Shown: positions 2,647-37,179 of the stretch, piece by piece | Layout of the letters: each line of letters begins with the position of its first letter | Position numbering within the stretch: the first letter of the stretch is position 1 | IMG/VR virus record: IMGVR_UViG_3300035241_000028 | Coordinates: 1 to 48,539 of that record | From: a virus | Direction: 5' to 3' (one strand) | Length of the DNA: 48,539 bases | Translations under genes and position numbers: made by a program | Notes under the pieces: model-generated | The model's input: the letters and a program-made list of their open reading frames with translations, nothing else | Database searches by the model: none | Told to the model about the DNA's origin: nothing

Positions 2647-2852
2647 GGCTGGCCCCCCTCCATGGCTTCCTTGCTCGGCCCGTAGTAACGGCTCAGCGCG
2701 ACCAGCTTTTCGAGGTCGGTCACCAGAATGGATGCCTCCCTCGCGGTGTTGCCCGCGCTTGCCTCGGTGGCCTCACGCTTCAGATTCTGAAACTCCCAAA
2801 GCGCTCGGTTGAGACACTCATCGGCTGCCTTGAATCGCTCGGTCACGTTCAT
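2643..2852 (-). CDS. Small helical hypothetical protein
   Basis: Sixty-nine residues, mostly amphipathic helix (FKAADECLNRALWEFQNLKREA). The ATG at 2852 has GGAGAAGG just upstream, so it is probably read from its own ribosome site. Its first 35 bases overlap the end of the long frame running on from rusA. Function unknown. Confidence 0.6.
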   Translation of the reverse strand: MNVTERFKAADECLNRALWEFQNLKREATEASAGNTAREASILVTDLEKLVALSRYYGPSKEAMEGGQP

Positions 2853-3555
2853 CCTTCTCCTCCTCGAAAAGAGCCGGCTGCGAGGCCGGCGGTTGGGTTT
2901 GATTGGTAGGGGCGGAGGGAATTGAACCCTCTGTCATCTGATTGAAAGTCAGAGCGCTCGACCGTTCGCGCCCGCCCCCAAGGTTGGTAGGGCTGGCGGG
3001 AATCGAACCCGCTAGATCTTCGGGATGAGAACCCGGCCGCTCACCGTTCGCGCTCAGCCCCTCATTATCCAGCGCGCGCACCCGGATCTCGACGAAGGGC
3101 GCTTCCCCTTGCGCGCCCCAAGCCTTCCTCACGCGCAGGTCGGCGATCTGACCGTCATCGTCCCACAAGACAGCCTCGCCGGCGTCGCCGATCGCTTTGG
3201 CGAGGTTGTCGCAATTGCCGTACCGTCCGGTATGCAGGCGGCGCGGAATCGGCTCCCGCTTCCGATGCTTCGAGGCCGGCAGGGCAAAGACGGCGGTGAT
3301 CTCGACGGCGAGCGGGGCGCTACCGAAGTAGGAGCCGCGCACGTGCCCCGGCGGCCAGTCGCCGGCGTCCACCGCTGCCCGGTACATCCGCTCCTGGAGG
3401 TCCACCTTGTAGTGACGTACCTTGGCCGGCTGCCGAACGGTGACGCCCTCGCGACCATCCTTCGCCTTCCACCGACCGACCTTGCCCTGGTTCTGCGGCA
3501 CCGGCTCGCCCGGCACCAGAACGACCAGCGTGCGCTCGGTGGGCTGGTCAGCCAT
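2818..3555 (-). CDS. rusA: RusA-like Holliday junction resolvase with tRNA-derived C-terminal read-through
   Basis: RusA is a homodimeric endonuclease that cuts Holliday junctions; in phages it resolves recombination or replication intermediates before packaging. Residues 1-165 carry the family signature: an early GEPVPQNQGK strand, CDNLAKAIGDA (Asp116, Asp124) and WDDDGQIADL (Asp132-134), which contain the metal-binding acidic residues. The remaining 80 residues are unusual because the frame passes straight through two sense-strand tRNA-Glu genes, producing SIPASPTN and SIPSAPTN stretches, and stops only inside the next gene. The conserved domain ends where the first tRNA begins, so the tail is probably acquired and may not be functional. 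The start ATG lies three bases after the upstream stop. Confidence 0.85.
   Translation of the reverse strand: MADQPTERTLVVLVPGEPVPQNQGKVGRWKAKDGREGVTVRQPAKVRHYKVDLQERMYRAAVDAGDWPPGHVRGSYFGSAPLAVEITAVFALPASKHRKREPIPRRLHTGRYGNCDNLAKAIGDAGEAVLWDDDGQIADLRVRKAWGAQGEAPFVEIRVRALDNEGLSANGERPGSHPEDLAGSIPASPTNLGGGRERSSALTFNQMTEGSIPSAPTNQTQPPASQPALFEEEKDERDRAIQGSR
2904..2979 (-). tRNA. tRNA-Glu (anticodon UUC)
   Basis: On the minus strand this folds as a 76-base cloverleaf. The acceptor is GGGGGCG/CGCCCCT, with a G-U first pair. The D stem is CGC/GCG with GG in the loop. The anticodon stem is TCTGA/TCAGA around CTTTCAA, giving UUC, and the T arm is GAGGG-TTCAATT-CCCTC. The 3' CCA is encoded. Position 8 is G instead of the nearly universal U, and the D stem is short, so it may be slightly degenerate. 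It lies in the rusA frame, five bases downstream of the second tRNA-Glu. Confidence 0.88.
2985..3061 (-). tRNA. tRNA-Glu (anticodon CUC)
   Basis: A 77-base cloverleaf on the minus strand. The acceptor is GGGGCTG/CAGCCCT (first pair G-U), the D stem CGC/GCG, and the T arm GCGGG-TTCGATT-CCCGC, with encoded CCA. The anticodon loop TTCTCAT gives CUC; its stem CCGGG/CCCGA has one mismatch at the top. Position 8 is A, not U. The D arm is nearly identical to that of the neighbouring tRNA-Glu(UUC), suggesting duplication followed by anticodon divergence. Its 5' end falls at codon 165 of rusA. Confidence 0.85.
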
Positions 3556-3854: not shown

Positions 3855-4406
3855 CTACCTCCGCAGACAGGACTGCACCCCGACCAGGTAGTCCGCGCAC
3901 GCTTGTAGCTTCTCTCGCCGGCTGCTGGTCAAAGCGCGCCAGCCCTGGGACTCCAGCAAGGCACCCACGCACGCCGGCGAGGGCGGTTCAGGACAGGAGG
4001 GGGTCACCGAGGCCGCGGCGCTCTCCGCCCGTGGCGCCGCCGTGACAGCGCACAGGAGCTGCGCCAGCGGCACCTGTTCGCACGTCCGGGCCAGCTGGCG
4101 GCTCTTGACCACCGAGGTCTGGCAGTAAGCCTGCAGCGCCGGGAGTCCGGAACACGCCTGCACGACCTGCGTCCCTCCCCGACCGCTGGCGCAGCCGGCC
4201 AACAGCATCAGCAGCAGGGCCGCGGCGGGCAGGGCCTTGACGGAGCGCTTCACGGCCCGCAGCGCGGCCAACACGATTGCGCAGGTGGCCTTATAGCCGG
4301 CGGCGGAAAACGTTCCCTTCTTCGCCCGCCATTCACTCTCTTCGGCACTAATGGCCGCCAACGCCGCTGTCTTTTCGATCATCTTCCGTTTCACGTTCCG
4401 TTTCAC
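3855..4406 (-). CDS. Putative lipoprotein with cytoplasmic N-terminal extension
   Basis: From the GTG at 4406 (AAAGGAGG four bases upstream) the product is 183 residues. Around residues 60-72 is a hydrophobic stretch ending in a lipobox, LLMLLAGC, normally found within the first 30 residues of a lipoprotein. An internal GTG at 4253 would give VKRSVKALPAAALLLMLLAGC at the very N-terminus, a textbook lipoprotein signal, but it lacks a ribosome site. Either two products are made or the long form is an inner-membrane protein. The exported part has about eight cysteines. The start region contains a tandem 12-base repeat (two copies of GTGAAACGGAAC/G), which duplicates the possible GTG. Function unknown; a surface or lysis role is speculative. 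Confidence 0.6.
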   Translation of the reverse strand: MKRNVKRKMIEKTAALAAISAEESEWRAKKGTFSAAGYKATCAIVLAALRAVKRSVKALPAAALLLMLLAGCASGRGGTQVVQACSGLPALQAYCQTSVVKSRQLARTCEQVPLAQLLCAVTAAPRAESAAASVTPSCPEPPSPACVGALLESQGWRALTSSRREKLQACADYLVGVQSCLRR

Positions 4407-4546
4407 GTTCCCTCCTTTCGGGAGATTTGAGGTTCGCTCAAGTCCCGGCAGCGGCCCGCGGCTGCTCCCTGCCTTCCTTCGCGGACCCACTTCGCGCGGA
4501 AGCTCGCGCTGATGGCGTCGGCGAATTGATGGCCGCTGCCGAGACT

Positions 4547-4906
4547 TCAGCCAATCTCGCCGCTCCTGATCCGGGCGGCAAGGGCCACCGGGCACACCCG
4601 AAGGTGCTGCTCGCTCTCGCCTGGAACGTTTTCCCACAGATCTTCCGGCCAGAACTCGAAGTCGTTGGGGCCGTCTTCCGGGCAGGCGCACCCCGACGCC
4701 TCGACGCCGGCGGCGATCGCCTCGCGGAGGGCGTCCCGCTCGGCGACGAGGCGAAGGATCTCGCGCGATGCTGGCCCCGAATACGCTGGATTCTTCCAAC
4801 CCCAGTGCCCCCTCAGCCGCATGTAGCACCCTTCGCCGGTCACCCGATGCTCCCAGCCGCCCTCCTGCCATTCGTGCTCGGCAACCATCGGCCGCTCGTC
4901 GCTCAT
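4547..4906 (-). CDS. Hypothetical protein
   Basis: About 119 residues from ATG 4906, with GGAGAGAAG upstream. It is Trp-rich and acidic (HEWQEGGWEHRVTGEGCYMRLRGHWGW, then a helix REILRLVAERDALREAIAAG, then CACPEDGPNDFEFWPEDLWENV). A pair of cysteines (CAC) and later VCP might bind metal. No family is recognised. It overlaps the upstream gene by four bases; about 140 bases downstream separate it from the lipoprotein gene and hold only that gene's ribosome site. Confidence 0.55.
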   Translation of the reverse strand: MSDERPMVAEHEWQEGGWEHRVTGEGCYMRLRGHWGWKNPAYSGPASREILRLVAERDALREAIAAGVEASGCACPEDGPNDFEFWPEDLWENVPGESEQHLRVCPVALAARIRSGEIG

Positions 4907-5417: not shown

Positions 5418-5642
5418 ATGAACCCAACCGTCTTGCAAGAGAGAATCGCCGAGATCGTCCTGGCAGCTGTCGCGGAGGAGCGGACTCGCGTCCGCCGCGA
5501 GCTGCTGGCGTCCGTCGAGGAGGCCGCGTGGGACACGGCCGCCTCGACAGGAGCACAGCTTCCCGGATGCTTGGTTGTGGATCTAGACGATCTCCGAGCT
5601 GCCCTAGACAAGATCGCCCCCGAGGAGGTCTCCAATGGATGA
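5418..5642 (+). CDS. Small helical hypothetical protein, first gene of rightward cassette
   Basis: Seventy-four residues, predicted largely helical (LQERIAEIVLAAVAEERTRVRRELL). The ATG has a good AAAGGAG site. It heads a run of five rightward genes inside an otherwise leftward arm. No family is recognised. Confidence 0.6.
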   Translation: MNPTVLQERIAEIVLAAVAEERTRVRRELLASVEEAAWDTAASTGAQLPGCLVVDLDDLRAALDKIAPEEVSNG

Positions 5643-5868
5643 GCCGACCATCAAGCTGCTCGCCGAGTCGATCGCCCGGGATCTCTTCACCAGCCGCCTC
5701 CGCCCGGACGAGGTGGCTACGCATTTGGCGCTGATGTCCGAGTCCGCAGTCGGGACCCGCTCTCGCTACCTCGGCGGCTGGTGCGAGAGCGCGGTTGCCA
5801 CCCTGATCGCCCGCAGGCTGAGGCTCGCCTCCGCCCTAGCCCGAGAGACGGAGGTGCTCCATGGCTGA
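5635..5868 (+). CDS. Small hypothetical protein
   Basis: Seventy-seven residues, mostly helical (IKLLAESIARDLFTSR; ESAVATLIARRLRLASALARE). The start overlaps the upstream gene by eight bases, so the two are coupled. Function unknown. Confidence 0.6.
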   Translation: MDEPTIKLLAESIARDLFTSRLRPDEVATHLALMSESAVGTRSRYLGGWCESAVATLIARRLRLASALARETEVLHG

Positions 5869-6883
5869 CAACGGCCTGGCGCTCCTCAACGCCGCCGGGG
5901 CCGCCCGCATGGCCGGACGCGAGCCCACCAAGGAGCAGCTCACCTTCGCCAAGAAATACGCGTGGCCCCACGGCCACGATTTCATCCTCTGGGCCACCAG
6001 GGGGGACAGCGAGAATCATTCGATCTACGCCGCGCTGGCGCTGGCCGACTGGTTGTTCTTCGCGGCTCTCGCCCGGTGGTGGAGGGAGCACGGTTTGTTC
6101 GGCAGCGAGCTGGGCTGCGACAACCGGTACTACAGTTCGGGAGTAGTCGAGGCCATGCTCTTCGCGCGGCTGCAGCTGCTCAAGGCTGGCGCGGCCGCTG
6201 ACGCGGAAGAGATCCGCTTGGCCGTCCGTGCCTACCTGGCATGGCTGGCCCTCGCCGCCATCCCGGTCACCCGGATGCGGGACGAGCTGCACACCGGGGC
6301 GGGAATCATCACGGGAGCCCGTCCAGCACCCAGGCGGGGCAAGGGAGCCAGCCTTCCCGGGCTCTCGGTGGCACCCGCTGGCAACAGGTTCCACGGCCCG
6401 GCCTCGCGGGCTGGCGGCCTCACCACCGACGACGCCGGGAGTGAGCTGCTCCGCGAGGCGATGGACATGCCCGACAGTCACGCCTTGACGCTGGCCGAAG
6501 TCGATCGGCTCCACCTCTGCGTCCTCGGGAGCAAGGAAGCCGCCCGCGAGGTCTCCGCCTGGTTGCTCGGCACCCTGGACGGCTGGCGGTGGACGTTGCG
6601 ACGTACCGACCAGGGCGCCGAGCGCGTCTTTTGGGGTGGGTCTCGCGGCCCGAATCCCAACAAGCCTGCCCGCGCTGTCGGGCAGGTCCTGCCGGACGGC
6701 ACGTACAGGGGCTTGCAGCCCTCCCTTCGCAACGATCCGGGCTGGAGCGCTGGGTGGACTGTCTCCGAGGAGGGAGGCGTCTACGCGGCCTCCTGCGCGG
6801 GCGGGTCGGCATCCCTTCCGAAGCTCGGTGGCGAGGTTCTCTGGACCGTCGAGATCGAAGCCGATAGGGTAGTGTTCTCATGA
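5861..6883 (+). CDS. Large protein of unknown function
   Basis: About 340 residues. The first 140 are helical and aromatic-rich (FILWATRGDSENHSIYAALALADWLFF, then NRYYSSGVVEAMLFARLQLL). A Gly/Ala/Pro-rich linker follows (about 145-200), then a mixed region with repeated Trp and Gly (DGWRWTLRRTD; RVFWGGSRGPNPNKP), ending in beta strands (GGEVLWTVEIEADRVVFS). No signal peptide, transmembrane segment or nuclease motif is convincing. This is by far the largest gene of the rightward cassette and presumably its effector. The start overlaps the previous gene by eight bases. No family assignment is offered. Confidence 0.65.
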   Translation: MADNGLALLNAAGAARMAGREPTKEQLTFAKKYAWPHGHDFILWATRGDSENHSIYAALALADWLFFAALARWWREHGLFGSELGCDNRYYSSGVVEAMLFARLQLLKAGAAADAEEIRLAVRAYLAWLALAAIPVTRMRDELHTGAGIITGARPAPRRGKGASLPGLSVAPAGNRFHGPASRAGGLTTDDAGSELLREAMDMPDSHALTLAEVDRLHLCVLGSKEAAREVSAWLLGTLDGWRWTLRRTDQGAERVFWGGSRGPNPNKPARAVGQVLPDGTYRGLQPSLRNDPGWSAGWTVSEEGGVYAASCAGGSASLPKLGGEVLWTVEIEADRVVFS

Positions 6884-7089
6884 GCGTTCGCGAAAAGATT
6901 GCCGCCGGGGAGTATTGGGGCTTGGCGTGCCGACGCTCCGTCTTCGAGGAAGATCTCCTGCGCGAGCTGAACCTTCTGGAGCACCCCAAGGCTAAAGCGC
7001 TCCTTCATCTCGCGTGGGATCTCGGTCACTCCTCCGGACTGTCCGCTGTGGCGATCATCGCGGGCGAGCTCGCGGAGCTACTACGGTGA
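6880..7089 (+). CDS. Small hypothetical protein
   Basis: Sixty-nine residues, helical (FEEDLLRELNLLEHPKAKALLHLAWDLGH). The start ATGA overlaps the stop of the 340-residue gene. It lacks known motifs and is probably a partner or accessory of that gene. Confidence 0.55.
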   Translation: MSVREKIAAGEYWGLACRRSVFEEDLLRELNLLEHPKAKALLHLAWDLGHSSGLSAVAIIAGELAELLR

Positions 7090-7232
7090 GACGTCTCGGC
7101 TGCCTCGTCGCCGCGCTGATCGCCCTCCTGGTGGCGGCCGTCATCGTCGCCTCCGGGGGCTCGCTGATCCTGGCAGCCCTCGGGGGCGTCCTCGCGGTGG
7201 CCGCCTGCGCCTGCATGCGGTGGGCGGCGTGA
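7086..7232 (+). CDS. Small two-span membrane protein
   Basis: Forty-eight residues from a GTG overlapping the upstream stop (GTGA). Two hydrophobic segments (LGCLVAALIALLVAAVIVA and LILAALGGVLAVAACAC) are separated by a short SGGS turn: a helical hairpin. Holin, toxin-like or membrane-anchor roles all fit. A further GTG at 7229 opens a short frame running into the convergent methyltransferase gene; I do not call it. Confidence 0.5.
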   Translation: MRRLGCLVAALIALLVAAVIVASGGSLILAALGGVLAVAACACMRWAA

Positions 7233-9822: not shown

Positions 9823-10340
9823 TACCGCAACCTTCGCTCACCCTCAATCGCTGCGTTTTGTAGGAGCATCCGTCGCTCCTGCCTGTCTAAGTGGGGCCAC
9901 AGTTCGATCTCCGACTCGGTCAGCGGGTAGCCGACCGGCGGGGTATCGCCGGGACGCCCGCTGATCTTGCCGTTCCGCGGCTCCACCAGCCCCTGATACC
10001 GGCAGGCTGCCGAGTGCTCGACCGCCGCCGCGGCCCTCTCCGGCCCCATGGCCGCCATCTGCCGATAGAGCGCGGCGAGAGCCACGGGGCCGTACCTTTC
10101 CTTGCGTTCGGACTTGTACGCCAGCCATTGTCCGAGGGCTTCCAGGAGTTCCAGGGGCGGCTCGGGCGCCGGGGCGTCGTCACCAGGAAAGAGTACCCCG
10201 ATCTTGTCGAGCTCCCGGAGATCGCGCTCGGCTGTCCGGACGATCGCCGCCGCGGTGTCCGACGATCGGAGGACGTGCTTCGCCGCGGCCAGCAGGGCGA
10301 GGGCGTGCGCGAGGGCCAGGCGCTGGGGGTCCGGCTTCAT
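9822..10340 (-). CDS. Hypothetical helical protein
   Basis: One hundred and seventy-two residues from the ATG at 10340 (ATGA overlap with the upstream stop). The N-terminal third is an Ala/Leu-rich helical segment (LALAHALALLAAAKHVLRSS). The C-terminal part has a basic, possibly DNA-binding region (VEPRNGKISGRPGDTPPVGYPLTESEIELWPHL). No catalytic residues are visible and no family is recognised. Confidence 0.6.
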   Translation of the reverse strand: MKPDPQRLALAHALALLAAAKHVLRSSDTAAAIVRTAERDLRELDKIGVLFPGDDAPAPEPPLELLEALGQWLAYKSERKERYGPVALAALYRQMAAMGPERAAAAVEHSAACRYQGLVEPRNGKISGRPGDTPPVGYPLTESEIELWPHLDRQERRMLLQNAAIEGERRLR

Positions 10341-10576
10341 GCAGCCGCCTCTGCCGTTGCAACAGCCTTCTCCTCCCACTCCTCCAAGATCTTGCAAACG
10401 GCGTCGATCATCTTGAGGTCGTCCGCCACCATTTCCTTTCCGAGGTGGGCCGAGAAGCGCAGCTCGCCGCCTCCCTTCAGCTTGACGCGCCGAGTGTGCG
10501 CGGCGTGGTAGCGGTGCTCGTCGATTTCGTTGTACGCCTCGTCAATGGCGGTGTGCAGTTGGGCGCGGCTCAGCAT
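10337..10576 (-). CDS. Hypothetical protein
   Basis: Seventy-nine residues from ATG 10576, with AAAAGGAG ideally placed upstream. It has a helical N-terminus, a short beta patch (RRVKLKGGGELRFSAHLG) and a helical, Ala-rich end. Function unknown. It is the first gene after the long non-coding structured stretch, so its message would carry that structure as a leader unless processed. Confidence 0.6.
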   Translation of the reverse strand: MLSRAQLHTAIDEAYNEIDEHRYHAAHTRRVKLKGGGELRFSAHLGKEMVADDLKMIDAVCKILEEWEEKAVATAEAAA

Positions 10577-11244
10577 CTCGCTCTCCTTTTCTGTTTCGCT
10601 TCGCGACCAGGAACCCACACCCCACCGCCACCCCTGTTTCCTGGACCTCCTCTCCCCCTCCCCTCGTCTTCTTCACCCAGAGGCTGAGCGGAGGGAGGGA
10701 GCGAGGAGTAGATCTTCCCCCTACCCCCGCGAAGGGATAGGGAGCAGATCTACGGCGAAGGCGTCGCCTCGGTCGGTCGCTTCGTCGGGTCCCACGTACG
10801 AGCTGAGACCAGAGCATGTCTATCGGGGCTCGTCCCCTCACCGGCAGGCCCACGCCCTTGGGTTTCCCCTCACTCCAGGCCCGCCCCCGCCGCCGGCCGC
10901 ATGGTCTTACGGGGGGCACGCCAAGCCGCTTTCTTTGAGGCTGTGCGGCCCCTACACGGGACCGGATGTCCTCGTGCGGGGGCGCCAAGCGGCTCGGCAA
11001 GGAGGCGCTGCCCCGTTGATGTAGACGAGGGCCGTCCGTGTTGGGGCTTGCGATGGGAAGAGGCTGTGGTATGCTCTTGGCATCGACTTACCTCAGGCCC
11101 CGGCCGGAGTCGCCCTCGTAAGTGGCTCCCCGGGGCCGTCCTCTTTCTGCCTTGCGTTCTCGCTGGCGGCCCGATTTGGCCGGGTTCCATCCAACTCGCA
11201 GAAAGAGGACAACTCCGAAACTCTACGCCCCGCCCCGCCACCCG
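10577..11244 (-). ncRNA. Candidate large structured RNA (gene-free, hairpin-rich region)
   Basis: These 668 bases hold no convincing gene; open frames here are low-complexity and lack ribosome sites. Many stems are visible: 10608-10614 with 10638-10644; 10708-10715 with 10746-10753 (8 bp, continued inward); 10798-10803 with 10828-10833 enclosing 10806-10809/10818-10821; 10924-10931 with 10987-10994 (8 bp) enclosing 10955-10962/10968-10976; 11051-11062 with 11074-11085 (two 5-bp blocks); 11086-11091 with 11118-11123; 11138-11150 with 11198-11210 (13 bp, perfect) enclosing 11167-11171/11178-11182. In the 10708 hairpin two mismatches become G-U pairs only if the minus strand is transcribed, favouring that strand, the same as the operon. 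No known RNA class was recognised. Exact ends are unknown. Confidence 0.5.
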
Positions 11245-11433
11245 TCAAGGCCGCGGGACTCGCGAGATCTCGCGAAATTCCCTGCCGCGCATAACCTCGC
11301 GCAGGCAGGGCGCACAGAACGCGCCCGCAACGGCCCGCCGGCCGCGGATCAGCGCCCCCTCGCACCCGGGGCAGGCGCGGCGGCGGGGGATGGCTCGCTC
11401 GCGGCTCAGCCCAAGCCAACGAATCCTAGGCAT
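11245..11433 (-). CDS. Small zinc-ribbon protein
   Basis: Sixty-two residues, basic, with CPGCEGALIRG and FCAPCLREVMRG: two CxxC knuckles about 19 residues apart, a classic treble-clef or ribbon zinc site. It probably binds nucleic acid or a partner protein. Its first 28 bases overlap the end of the upstream coiled-coil gene. Confidence 0.65.
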   Translation of the reverse strand: MPRIRWLGLSRERAIPRRRACPGCEGALIRGRRAVAGAFCAPCLREVMRGREFREISRVPRP

Positions 11434-13585: not shown

Positions 13586-13902
13586 AATTTCCTCATCAGG
13601 TCAACGACGATGCCTTTGATCTGCACCTGGTCCGCGGGGAAGCGCAGGGCCCGCAGGCAGGGGTGCCGGACCATGACGCCCTCACGGTAGTAGCGCTTGA
13701 TCGTGTCTTCGCCGCCGACTCTCGCCACCACCATCTCCCCGGACTCAGCCTGGTGCCGGCGGAGCACGATGACGAAGTCTCCGTCGCAAATCGATTCTTC
13801 GATCATGGAGTCGCCCACAACCCGGAGGACGTAGTGATCCCCTTCTCCGTCCCTCGGGCTCAAGAGGTGTGCGGGCACGGTGATTCGTTCGCCTTCCGAC
13901 AC
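13582..13902 (-). CDS. Stand-alone S24 (LexA/UmuD-like) peptidase domain
   Basis: One hundred and six residues from a GTG with GGAGG upstream. VVGDSMIEESICDGDFVIV contains the nucleophile Ser32 in GDSM, and GGEDTIKRYYREG contains the general base Lys69: the Ser/Lys dyad of LexA, UmuD and phage repressors. There is no N-terminal helix-turn-helix and no evident Ala-Gly cleavage site, so it is neither a normal repressor nor a full UmuD. It sits between the annealing protein and a zinc-ribbon gene. It may respond to RecA filaments, act on another protein, or bind one as a UmuD' mimic. Confidence 0.85.
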   Translation of the reverse strand: MSEGERITVPAHLLSPRDGEGDHYVLRVVGDSMIEESICDGDFVIVLRRHQAESGEMVVARVGGEDTIKRYYREGVMVRHPCLRALRFPADQVQIKGIVVDLMRKF

Positions 13903-13904
13903 GG

Positions 13905-14957
13905 CTAATCCTCCTCTCCCGGCTCGCGATCGCGCTTCAGCTCAGCCAGGCCGGCCAGTTCCCGCTTGAGAGAGTCGAGCCCGTTGGCGAGGTCCCCCGG
14001 CGCCAGCTTTGTAACCGCCAGCCACCCGCCGGCCGCGAAGTGCCGCTGGAAGAGATCCGCCTTATCCTCCCGCTTCGAGGTCAGAGACCGGATCTCGTCC
14101 ACCAGGGCGCCGCGGTCGAGAATGCCCGGACTTGGCTCTGTGCGCTCCGCTGAGCCCCGATCGTCTTCGGGTGGGGCGGCCGCGGGCGCGGCAGGGGCGT
14201 CGCTCGGCGAGGTCTTCTGAGCCAGGAGCCGTTGTGCGAGGGCGTCCGCCCGGGATTCGCTGGGTGCCAGCGTGACGGTTTCGATGACCGGGCCTCCTCG
14301 CTGCTGTCGGCCGATCTCCTCCGGGATGTATTCCGAGCCCACCTCCTCGGGGAAAGCCCTCCGCAGGGCGGCGGCCTCCGCGCACTTCTCCAGCTGTCCC
14401 CGTGGCCGCGTCTCCCACATCTCGTTCGGAACGTCCGAAGCCCCCATGGTGGCGTAGGTCTCCAGCCACCAGACCTTCGGGCCGGGGAAGGCGACGCGCT
14501 GGCCACCGAGCACGCGGTAGACGGTGACTTGCGCCCACAGGGGGAAGGTAACGGACTTCTCGACCTCCTTCGCGTACTGGCCCTTGCCCACGACGCCGTT
14601 GAAGGTGCGCGTTTCGTCCGGGCCGAACGTCGCTTCGTCGTAGCCGGCATGCTGGCCTGTGCGCGCCGCCGTCGTGCGCAGCTCGCCGATCCCCGGCCAA
14701 ACCGATTCGACCTCCCGGCCCAGCTTGGAGTTCCAGACCGGCACGATATGCACCGGTCGCTTGAAGGGGTCCAACCGCCGCGCCCGACAGTACGCCAGCG
14801 CCAGCTCGATGCCCTCTGTCGTCTTGGCGCTCGGCCACACGGCATCGACCAGCGCCATCCAATCACCAGGGGACACCCCGAACGCGTCCTTGGCCCGCGC
14901 AGGGTACGCCGGCCGGCCCTCCGAAACCACCAATGCGGTAGACTTCTGCTCAGCCAT
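13905..14957 (-). CDS. bet: Bet/RecT-like single-strand annealing protein
   Basis: The product anneals complementary single strands made by the partner exonuclease, allowing phage recombination and repair. It has 350 residues from ATG 14957. The Bet core is clear: LALAYCRARRLDPFKRPVHIVPVW, then SVWPGIGELRTTAARTGQHAGYDE, and VTVYRVLGGQRVAFPGPKVWWLETYA. KCAEAAALRRAFPEEVGSEY closes the conserved part at about residue 225. The C-terminal 125 residues are Ala/Pro-rich then helical and probably form the protein-interaction domain. It is encoded with the YqaJ-like exonuclease, separated only by one small gene, forming a lambda Red-like pair. Confidence 0.92.
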   Translation of the reverse strand: MAEQKSTALVVSEGRPAYPARAKDAFGVSPGDWMALVDAVWPSAKTTEGIELALAYCRARRLDPFKRPVHIVPVWNSKLGREVESVWPGIGELRTTAARTGQHAGYDEATFGPDETRTFNGVVGKGQYAKEVEKSVTFPLWAQVTVYRVLGGQRVAFPGPKVWWLETYATMGASDVPNEMWETRPRGQLEKCAEAAALRRAFPEEVGSEYIPEEIGRQQRGGPVIETVTLAPSESRADALAQRLLAQKTSPSDAPAAPAAAPPEDDRGSAERTEPSPGILDRGALVDEIRSLTSKREDKADLFQRHFAAGGWLAVTKLAPGDLANGLDSLKRELAGLAELKRDREPGEED

Positions 14958-19496: not shown

Positions 19497-20203
19497 CGCC
19501 CTACTACGAAGACGACGCGGTCCGGATCTTCCATGGTCGGTGCGAGGACGTCATCCCGCGCCTGCAGCTCTCCGAGGTGGCGATGGTGCTGGCGGACCCG
19601 CCGTACGGGATCGGGATTCAGAAACCCAACGGCGCCGTGTCGTCCATGCGCCGGCACATGACCTCGAGCAGCAAGCTGTCCGGCCGCCTGCAGCTATGCC
19701 CGTCGACGGAGTACCCATCCCTGATCGACGGCGACGCCGCACCGTTCACCCCGCCCGTGGAGCTGCTCTCCCTCCTGGACGGCGCCCATGTCTGCCTGTG
19801 GGGCGGGAACCACTACGCGGACGCCCTTCCCCGCTCGGCCGGCTGGCTCGTCTGGGACAAACGCCACAAGGGCGGCGACTGCTGCTTCGCCGATGCCGAG
19901 CTGGCCTGGACCAACTTCTCCGGCGTCGTCCGCGTCTTCCGCCACTACTGGAACGGCATGCTCCGAGACTCCGAGCGAGGCGCCCGCCAGCACCCCACCC
20001 AAAAGCCCGTCGCCCTCATGAAGTGGTGCCTCTCCCTTGCCAAGCTCGAGCCCGGCTCCCTAGTGCTTGATCCGTATACGGGAAGCGGCCCGGTGCTTCG
20101 AGCAGCAAAAGATCTCGGCTTCCGCGCCATCGGCATCGACTCCCTGGAGTGGTGCTGCGAGAGAGCCGCCGAGAGGTGCCGCCAGGAGACCCTGCCGCTG
20201 TGA
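19493..20203 (+). CDS. DNA methyltransferase (N6-adenine or N4-cytosine)
   Basis: Two hundred and thirty-six residues from a GTG overlapping the upstream stop. The catalytic DPPYG (35-39) comes first and the SAM-binding DPYTGSG (193-199) last, the beta-class order shared by N6-adenine and N4-cytosine enzymes. HPTQKPVALMKW precedes motif I as is typical. About 150 residues between them hold the target-recognition part (SSMRRHMTSSS, GNHYADALPRSAGWLVWDKRH). No matching restriction enzyme is adjacent. Together with the C5 enzyme on the other arm this gives the phage two methylation activities. Confidence 0.92.
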   Translation: MTPYYEDDAVRIFHGRCEDVIPRLQLSEVAMVLADPPYGIGIQKPNGAVSSMRRHMTSSSKLSGRLQLCPSTEYPSLIDGDAAPFTPPVELLSLLDGAHVCLWGGNHYADALPRSAGWLVWDKRHKGGDCCFADAELAWTNFSGVVRVFRHYWNGMLRDSERGARQHPTQKPVALMKWCLSLAKLEPGSLVLDPYTGSGPVLRAAKDLGFRAIGIDSLEWCCERAAERCRQETLPL

Positions 20204-20598
20204 GCAAGCGCCGATCCCTCCATGGTGGCGGAGAGGGCCGCCCCAACGCCGCCGCCCGCGGCTACGGCAGTCTCTGGCGCAAGCGAGCGGCCGCCCACTT
20301 GGAGCGGGTCCGCCAGCGGCAGGAGGCCGAGGGCTGGCCGGGCGGGCCGTGGTGCGAGTGCGAGGTGTGCGAGAACGCCCTGCTTCAGGCGGCAACCGCC
20401 TACGAGAAGGGCTGGCCGTCGTGGGCGTCGCCACTCCAGGCCGACACCGTAGACCACCGCCGCCCCCGGCGCCTCTTCCCCCTGGAGCTCCAGGGCAGCG
20501 ACGCCCCAGGCGGCTCCGATCACCCCGACAACCTCCGGGCGATGGCGCACGGCCACCACTCGCGGCGAAGGGACGACAAGGTAAGGAGACGAGAATGA
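20200..20598 (+). CDS. HNH-like nuclease
   Basis: One hundred and thirty-two residues from a GTG overlapping the methyltransferase stop. A basic start (SKRRSLHGGGEGRPNAAARGYGSLWRKR) leads to a Cys knuckle (CECEVC) and the nuclease core TVDHRRPRRL...HPDNLRAMAHGHHSRR, which gives the H-(P)-N-L...H..R pattern. Free-standing HNH proteins often work with phage terminase, but here it is coupled to modification genes, so it may cut unmodified DNA. Confidence 0.75.
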   Translation: MSKRRSLHGGGEGRPNAAARGYGSLWRKRAAAHLERVRQRQEAEGWPGGPWCECEVCENALLQAATAYEKGWPSWASPLQADTVDHRRPRRLFPLELQGSDAPGGSDHPDNLRAMAHGHHSRRRDDKVRRRE

Positions 20599-21707
20599 AT
20601 TACGATATCGAGGTCAAGTTCCCATGTCCGACCTGTCTTATGGCCGTCCAGGCTCAAGCGGTCGTAGGCAAGGGTGGGGCGCGCCTGGACAGCGTCCTTT
20701 GCCCTGGGTGCCGGCGTACTTTCGCTCTCAAAGTTAAGTTCGTGGACCCGGCCGAGGCGGCGCGATACATTCTGCGCTGCTCGCATGGCCTCAAGGGCCG
20801 GGGCTGGAGCTTCCCGGAGGCGCGGGCTGCGCTGCTGGAGGCATGCCCCGCGTGCCCGGCGGGGACTGACATCTTCATTGAGAAGTGGCCCCCGGGCGGC
20901 TGGCTTGAGAGCCCGTCGCCCAGCGACGGGGCGCCCGCCGAGACGGCTGGGCCGGCGGACGAGAGTCCAGAACAGGAAACCCTGCGCCAGCGACTGGCAG
21001 CGATTCGAGCAGAAGCTGAGGCTCTGCGCCACGCCATTCTTGACGGCCGGGAGAGCCCCTTCACCATAGGGTGCGAGCATGGCTGCGTGGGAAGCGGCGG
21101 GTCCCTTTTCGACGCGATCAGCGGGCTTCTGGACGAGTGCTCCGAGTGCAAGCTCTATCAGGCCCGGCGAGCCGAGTCGGACGCCGCGGACGAGGACGCC
21201 CCGGCTGAGCCACAGCAGGCAGAACAACAGCTCTACGCCGCCCTCAGGGAAGCGGTCGCAACGATAAACGCCGCTGCGGCGAACGGCGAAGTTCCGAAGT
21301 TTTACACCGAGCCGCTGCTTGCGCAACTGAGGAAGTTCTCGACGGAGTTTCGGTTGTCCCGGGAGCGCGCAGGGTCGTCAGAGGGCGCAGAGCCTGTCGC
21401 CCAGCCGCCGGCCGAACCGCCGCCACCGCTCAGCCCGGCCGCCCAGCGCAGGGCCGAGATGGGCCTCCTGATCGAAGCCATGGAGCTGTTGGACGGACGC
21501 CTGGCGGCTTTCGAGGCCCGACTCCGGCGGGGGCGCGCCTACAGGGACGACTACCGGGACGGCCTCTACTTCGCCGGCCAGCTTGGGGCCCACGTGGCCG
21601 AGCTGAAGACGTTGGCGAGCGACCACGACGCCATCGACGACAGGGACCACCGGGAGCGAATGGCGAGCTGGGAGCTAAAGGCCGCCATCAGGAGGGCGCA
21701 ACAATGA
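20595..21707 (+). CDS. Zinc-ribbon protein with long helical region
   Basis: About 370 residues from ATG 20595 (AAGGAGA upstream). The N-terminus has CPTCLMAV and, 25 residues on, CPGCRRTF, a zinc ribbon. A second region repeats Cys pairs (CSHG, CPACP, then CEHGC and CSECKLY). Long charged helices (LRQRLAAIRAEAEALRHAIL) and a Pro-rich linker follow. The C-terminal 90 residues are coiled-coil-like (LLIEAMELLDGRLAAFEARLR). It may be a scaffold or nucleic-acid-binding protein; no catalytic motif is seen and no family is recognised. Confidence 0.6.
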   Translation: MNYDIEVKFPCPTCLMAVQAQAVVGKGGARLDSVLCPGCRRTFALKVKFVDPAEAARYILRCSHGLKGRGWSFPEARAALLEACPACPAGTDIFIEKWPPGGWLESPSPSDGAPAETAGPADESPEQETLRQRLAAIRAEAEALRHAILDGRESPFTIGCEHGCVGSGGSLFDAISGLLDECSECKLYQARRAESDAADEDAPAEPQQAEQQLYAALREAVATINAAAANGEVPKFYTEPLLAQLRKFSTEFRLSRERAGSSEGAEPVAQPPAEPPPPLSPAAQRRAEMGLLIEAMELLDGRLAAFEARLRRGRAYRDDYRDGLYFAGQLGAHVAELKTLASDHDAIDDRDHRERMASWELKAAIRRAQQ

Positions 21708-37120: not shown

Positions 37121-37179
37121 CCGCCCCGCCCTCGGGCTCTACGCTGCCACCCGGACGGCGCATCCCGAGGGCGGGGCGG
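37121..37179 (+). terminator. Strong hairpin after the tail tube gene
   Basis: A perfect 16-bp stem (37121-37136 with 37164-37179; CCGCCCCGCCCTCGGG and its complement) with a 27-base loop, followed by GTACTTTATCC. The T run is short, so it probably attenuates transcription, keeping tube protein in excess over the chaperones and tape measure. Confidence 0.6.

Follow-up and report, generated by a model that had tools for sequence, protein, structure and literature searches.

A structured, non-coding 668-base gap and its putative leader RNA in the leftward operon of an environmental phage

The gap and its flanking genes

The window analyzed here is the 48.5-kb record of an uncharacterised environmental phage (IMGVR_UViG_3300035241_000028). 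Within its leftward arm, positions 10577-11244 form a gap of 668 bases, the largest of the operon and, according to a simple gene caller, of the whole window. The gap is bounded on both sides by minus-strand genes. The downstream gene (10337-10576) starts at 10576 behind an AGGAG-type ribosome site at about 10583-10588, and encodes a 79-residue protein of unknown function for which a family search returned no match. The upstream gene (11245-11433), ending at 11245, encodes a 62-residue zinc-ribbon-like protein (CxxC...CxxC), and its stop codon overlaps the predicted promoter described below. The simple gene caller overlooks this small gene, which is taken to be real because a related phage contig, L002, carries a homologue at 6126-6230 with 60% identity over 35 amino acids.

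Open reading frames inside the gap have codon log-likelihoods of -0.2 to -0.36 per codon, compared with +0.05 to +0.41 for the called genes; they match nothing in Pfam, and by E-value nothing significantly in PHROGs. The interval 10577-11244 is non-coding in all six frames, and the gap in a gene-packed arm that the initial annotation described is confirmed, with its limits set by the flanking genes. An overlooked protein-coding gene was considered for the gap and rejected, there being neither a codon signal nor a conserved protein.

Other features of the window are recorded alongside. A short rightward gene cluster lies on the plus strand at 5418-7232 within the otherwise leftward arm, and its largest protein (340 aa) has no family match in PHROGs. 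A strong inverted repeat of the leftward arm, with 39-nt arms that are 77% complementary, occupies 4407-4569, just upstream of a lipoprotein-like lysis gene, and holds the best 200-nt fold of the window (z -5.4, plus strand). At 37121-37179, where late genes leave a gap, a perfect 16-bp stem closes a loop of 27 bases. Rfam reports two tRNA-like genes at 2904-3061 on the minus strand and ARAGORN one (tRNA-Glu); they overlap the ORF of a RusA-like resolvase (2818-3555) in its C-terminal part.

Predicted promoter, hairpins and folding

A sigma70-like promoter, TTGACG-17-TAGAGT, is predicted on the minus strand at 11220-11248, at the upstream edge of the gap, with a start at about 11213. Counting both strands, the 48.5-kb window has seven sigma70-like sites at a 9-of-12 calling threshold, this one included. 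The predicted start, 11213, falls three bases ahead of a 13-bp stem, and hairpins H1 and H2 follow directly. Scanning the minus strand of the gap for terminator-like sites returned none, and the ribosome site of gene 10576-10337 comes directly afterwards; any RNA begun at this promoter would hence, if not processed, be a long leader.

The gap contains nine perfect 8-bp inverted-repeat words, against 1.6 expected from its length, and ranks third of 144 windows in this respect. Hairpin H1 (11138-11210) has a perfect 13-bp stem, with arms at 11138-11150 and 11198-11210, and a 47-base loop enclosing an inner hairpin, the stem and loop lengths being those given in the initial annotation; the window has just one other perfect inverted repeat of at least 12 bp, and the hairpin reaches z -5.6 on the minus strand and -4.8 on the plus strand. 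Immediately after it, at about 11096-11137, H2 pairs GGCCCCGG with CCGGGGCC (z -2.0 minus, -5.0 plus). Further on, at 10895-11000, come two hairpins that include a long stem, GCCGAGCCGCUU/AAGCGGCUUGGC (z -4.1 minus, -2.3 plus). Hairpin H3 (10708-10753) comprises 20 pairs, two of them G-U on the minus strand, with z -6.9 minus and -4.2 plus. H1, H3 and the excess of inverted repeats are confirmed. Two further stems do not stand out from their composition: the purine/pyrimidine hairpin at 10643-10712 (z -1.7 minus, -2.0 plus), which composition largely accounts for, and the CCAGGAA/TTCCTGG stem (z +1.2).

The palindromes are strand-symmetric and the gap sits among RecT, YqaJ and replication-like genes, a setting in which a DNA-level element of the replication/recombination operon, such as a replication origin or a recombination site, may be considered. 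An iteron-like direct-repeat array was looked for in the gap and was not present, nor does the gap contain an AT-rich stretch, and a reading at the DNA level is considered very improbable.

The G-U pairs of H3 had been put forward as favoring a minus-strand RNA. The local observation is correct: two C-A mismatches of the plus strand become G-U pairs on the minus strand, and the folding energy is -33.5 kcal/mol on the minus strand compared with -24.5 on the plus strand. As a general argument for the strand it fails, because H2 (11096-11138) behaves in the opposite way and favors the plus strand. The G-U signal is contradictory within the gap, and the minus strand is favored by the predicted promoter only. 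The far greater stability of H2 on the plus strand is compatible with a small plus-strand RNA, antisense to the operon and containing H2 and H1, which would arise from a weaker site, TTGCGA-16-TATGCT, at 11049-11076; an extended -10 element, TGGTATGCT, is present in the sequence there. This site is below the 9-of-12 threshold, such an RNA would account for the right third of the gap only, and the orientation in L002 is sense, all of which make it very improbable.

As a whole, the 668-nt gap folds with z -3.6 on the minus strand and -4.2 on the plus strand, all shuffles being less stable on both strands. The putative structured leader from the predicted start to the end of the gap (10577-11213, minus strand), likewise non-coding, reaches z -4.6, none of 80 shuffles being equally stable, and z -3.3 on the plus strand; control windows average about -0.7, with a standard deviation of 1.3-1.6. 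One control window in late coding genes reached z -6.6, a value obtained with only 16 shuffles. The strong folding of the gap is unusual, not unique.

A parallel gap in a related phage

L002 (IMGVR_UViG_3300046825_000021), a contig of 42.7 kb reached through its RecT protein (60% identical), is the sole syntenic phage contig that was found. Both it and the window carry YqaJ, RecT, the zinc-ribbon protein, a Dcm methylase and the tail of a replication-like protein. The largest non-coding gap of the L002 genome, 4568-5326, lies in the same RecT-to-Dcm operon and contains, in sense orientation, a predicted promoter, TTGACG-18-TACCAT, with a start at about 4754 inside the gap. It folds with z -3.7 in sense and -4.6 in antisense, and has no match in Rfam. 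The two gaps are alike in being the largest of their surroundings, in lying in the RecT-to-Dcm operon, and in having a predicted TTGACG promoter with two tandem hairpins behind it. They differ in that the L002 gap is found across the zinc-ribbon gene from where the window gap lies, extends about 570 nt after the start, has a dissimilar body and, unlike the window gap, is not enriched in perfect inverted repeats. Beside the L002 gap, a small gene is flanked by an exact direct repeat of 26 nt (4084-4109 and 4604-4629).

Both predicted RNAs open with two adjacent hairpins. The core of H1 is CUCUUU/AAAGAG in both, and the H2 stem at the position of the window's GGCCCCGG/CCGGGGCC is GUGCCCG/CGGGCAC in L002. 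A start of this H1-H2 kind is absent from the predicted transcripts of six other promoter-like sites of the window and L002. Pairing is consistent in the comparison of H1-H2 between the two phages, a comparison of two sequences that proves nothing by itself. Aligned over the first 150-250 nt, the two RNAs were beaten by 0-6 of 200 shuffles in two schemes and did not stand out in the third, and these counts are not clean probabilities, as the schemes and segments were picked after the data had been seen. When the L002 element was aligned against the whole window, the gap site ranked first under two of four schemes; in scans in the opposite direction, the corresponding place came about seventh at best. 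A covariance model of the window's H1-H2 placed L002 4764-4850 first in that contig with 13.8 bits, tied with another site and at an E-value of 0.48, which is noise level, and the reverse model, built from the L002 element, did not recover the window match. The rest of the two RNAs, about 500 nt in the window, shows no relation by sequence or by pairing profile, and a structure-profile comparison of the full window RNA with the full L002 RNA was no better than shuffles. Common descent of the two 5' domains is no more than suggested by these sequence comparisons.

Searching related contigs, as had been proposed, yielded no full-region homologue in phages, plasmids, the viral loci retrieved here or the sampled bacterial genomes. 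Distant blastn of the gap against phages and plasmids gave nothing beyond short matches, which fell in coding genes of no relation to it, and the same was obtained with 398 genomes from the order to which the Rhizobiales genome of locus L010 (G002) belongs and 369 genomes from the class of the Rhodoferax genome of locus L011 (G003). Two of the short DNA matches, L020 and L127, were examined as possible relatives and, lying in unrelated coding genes, taken as chance. Protein-neighbor searches with gene 10337-10576 and with ORF 20067-21707 returned no relatives, and searches of viral contigs with RecT and the zinc-ribbon protein returned L002 alone. Dcm led to 78 viral loci, YqaJ to 24 and terminase to 6; L002 aside, the Dcm and YqaJ loci have at most single genes in common with the operon, and no sequence-similar gap. 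Across 1.5 Mb of phage loci, the H1-H2 model gave only chance-level matches.

Other large gaps near YqaJ or RecT, in loci L106, L105, L123, L107 and L010, were rejected as relatives, having no similarity to the window gap; by eye they are ordinary hairpins or terminators, tRNA- or attachment-like regions, or regulatory regions. The gap of L106, another phage, is an ORF-poor interval (13619-14095) downstream of YqaJ whose sense strand folds with z -6.75, dominated by a long hairpin around GGGTTTAGAAAAACCC.

A gap with no conserved relative may also be a functionless or recently acquired palindrome-rich spacer, its structure a product of base composition together with some inverted repeats that are mobile or arose by chance. 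The nearly equal fold stability of the two strands, the conflicting G-U evidence among the hairpins and the very good folding of the coding-region control are all compatible with this explanation. The count of nine 8-bp inverted-repeat words against 1.6 expected, the predicted promoter at the gap edge and the parallel L002 gap of the same anatomy argue against it, and idle stretches of 668 bases are rarely kept in phage arms. A mere spacer is unlikely on balance, although it deserves serious weight.

Interpretation and comparison with known phage RNAs

The absence of a coding signal, the hairpin excess, the promoter at the edge and the parallel gap in L002 support the conclusion that the gap is structured, non-coding and probably transcribed. 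To this extent the reading of the initial annotation is supported. Membership of GOLLD or ROOL is not, as no Rfam family matches the gap at the gathering score and the matches at E-values up to 10 include neither of these nor any other large RNA.

The preferred reading, with a probability of slightly under one half (about 0.48), is that the gap is a long (~640 nt) structured, cis-acting 5' leader that opens a second transcription unit of the leftward early operon. RNA polymerase would start on the minus strand at the predicted site, about 11213, and the RNA would form the tandem hairpins H1 and H2 and then a hairpin-rich body. Transcription would presumably continue through the gap into gene 10576-10337 and beyond. 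The leader would most likely work in cis, on the transcript as it is being made, with the downstream genes as its target. In the simpler version, the leader would set the translation or stability of those genes. That the promoter-proximal hairpin pair instead modifies the polymerase against termination, by analogy with the put RNA of phage HK022, is distinctly doubtful. There is a slim chance that the promoter and H1-H2 represent a new family of RNA antiterminators, put-like in action but unrelated, with a fast-evolving structured body behind; as part of the same slim joint reading, environmental phages with no other relationship would share the family, each at a start site within the recombination/replication operon.

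Outside HK022-like phages, few protein-independent phage leader RNAs are known. Another such leader of separate origin, or a new large ornate RNA, would help to test how phages control long early operons; the present element is a reasonable candidate, with three strong hairpins and a start site that is predicted.

ROOL and GOLLD are large, hairpin-rich non-coding phage RNAs, found in phages that also have tRNA genes, and are characterised by a location near those tRNA genes and by RNA-only multimeric assembly (PMC12286853). The gap is likewise large, hairpin-rich and non-coding, in a tRNA-bearing phage. A free-standing RNA of this style, cut or ended before gene 10576 and acting in trans or by assembly, would fit the size, the phage context, the several strong stems and the tRNA genes (2907-3061) in the same leftward arm. 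It is rather improbable, given that the gap has no covariance-model match to GOLLD, ROOL or any other large RNA, lacks a minus-strand terminator-like site, lies about 7.5 kb from the tRNA genes and has no set of homologues in the searched collections.

The leader reading is closer in anatomy to the put RNAs (putL and putR) of HK022, which are ~70 nt long, consist of two tandem stem-loops and have similar sequences among themselves; putL lies just downstream of the promoter in the early operon (PMC9378689). Put RNA binds the zinc-binding domain of the beta-prime subunit of RNA polymerase and suppresses termination without a dedicated protein (PMC9378689). H1-H2 resembles it in anatomy only, as two tandem stem-loops at the predicted start of a phage early transcript, and differs in that the pair spans ~115 nt instead of ~70 nt, with another ~500 nt of structured sequence behind it.
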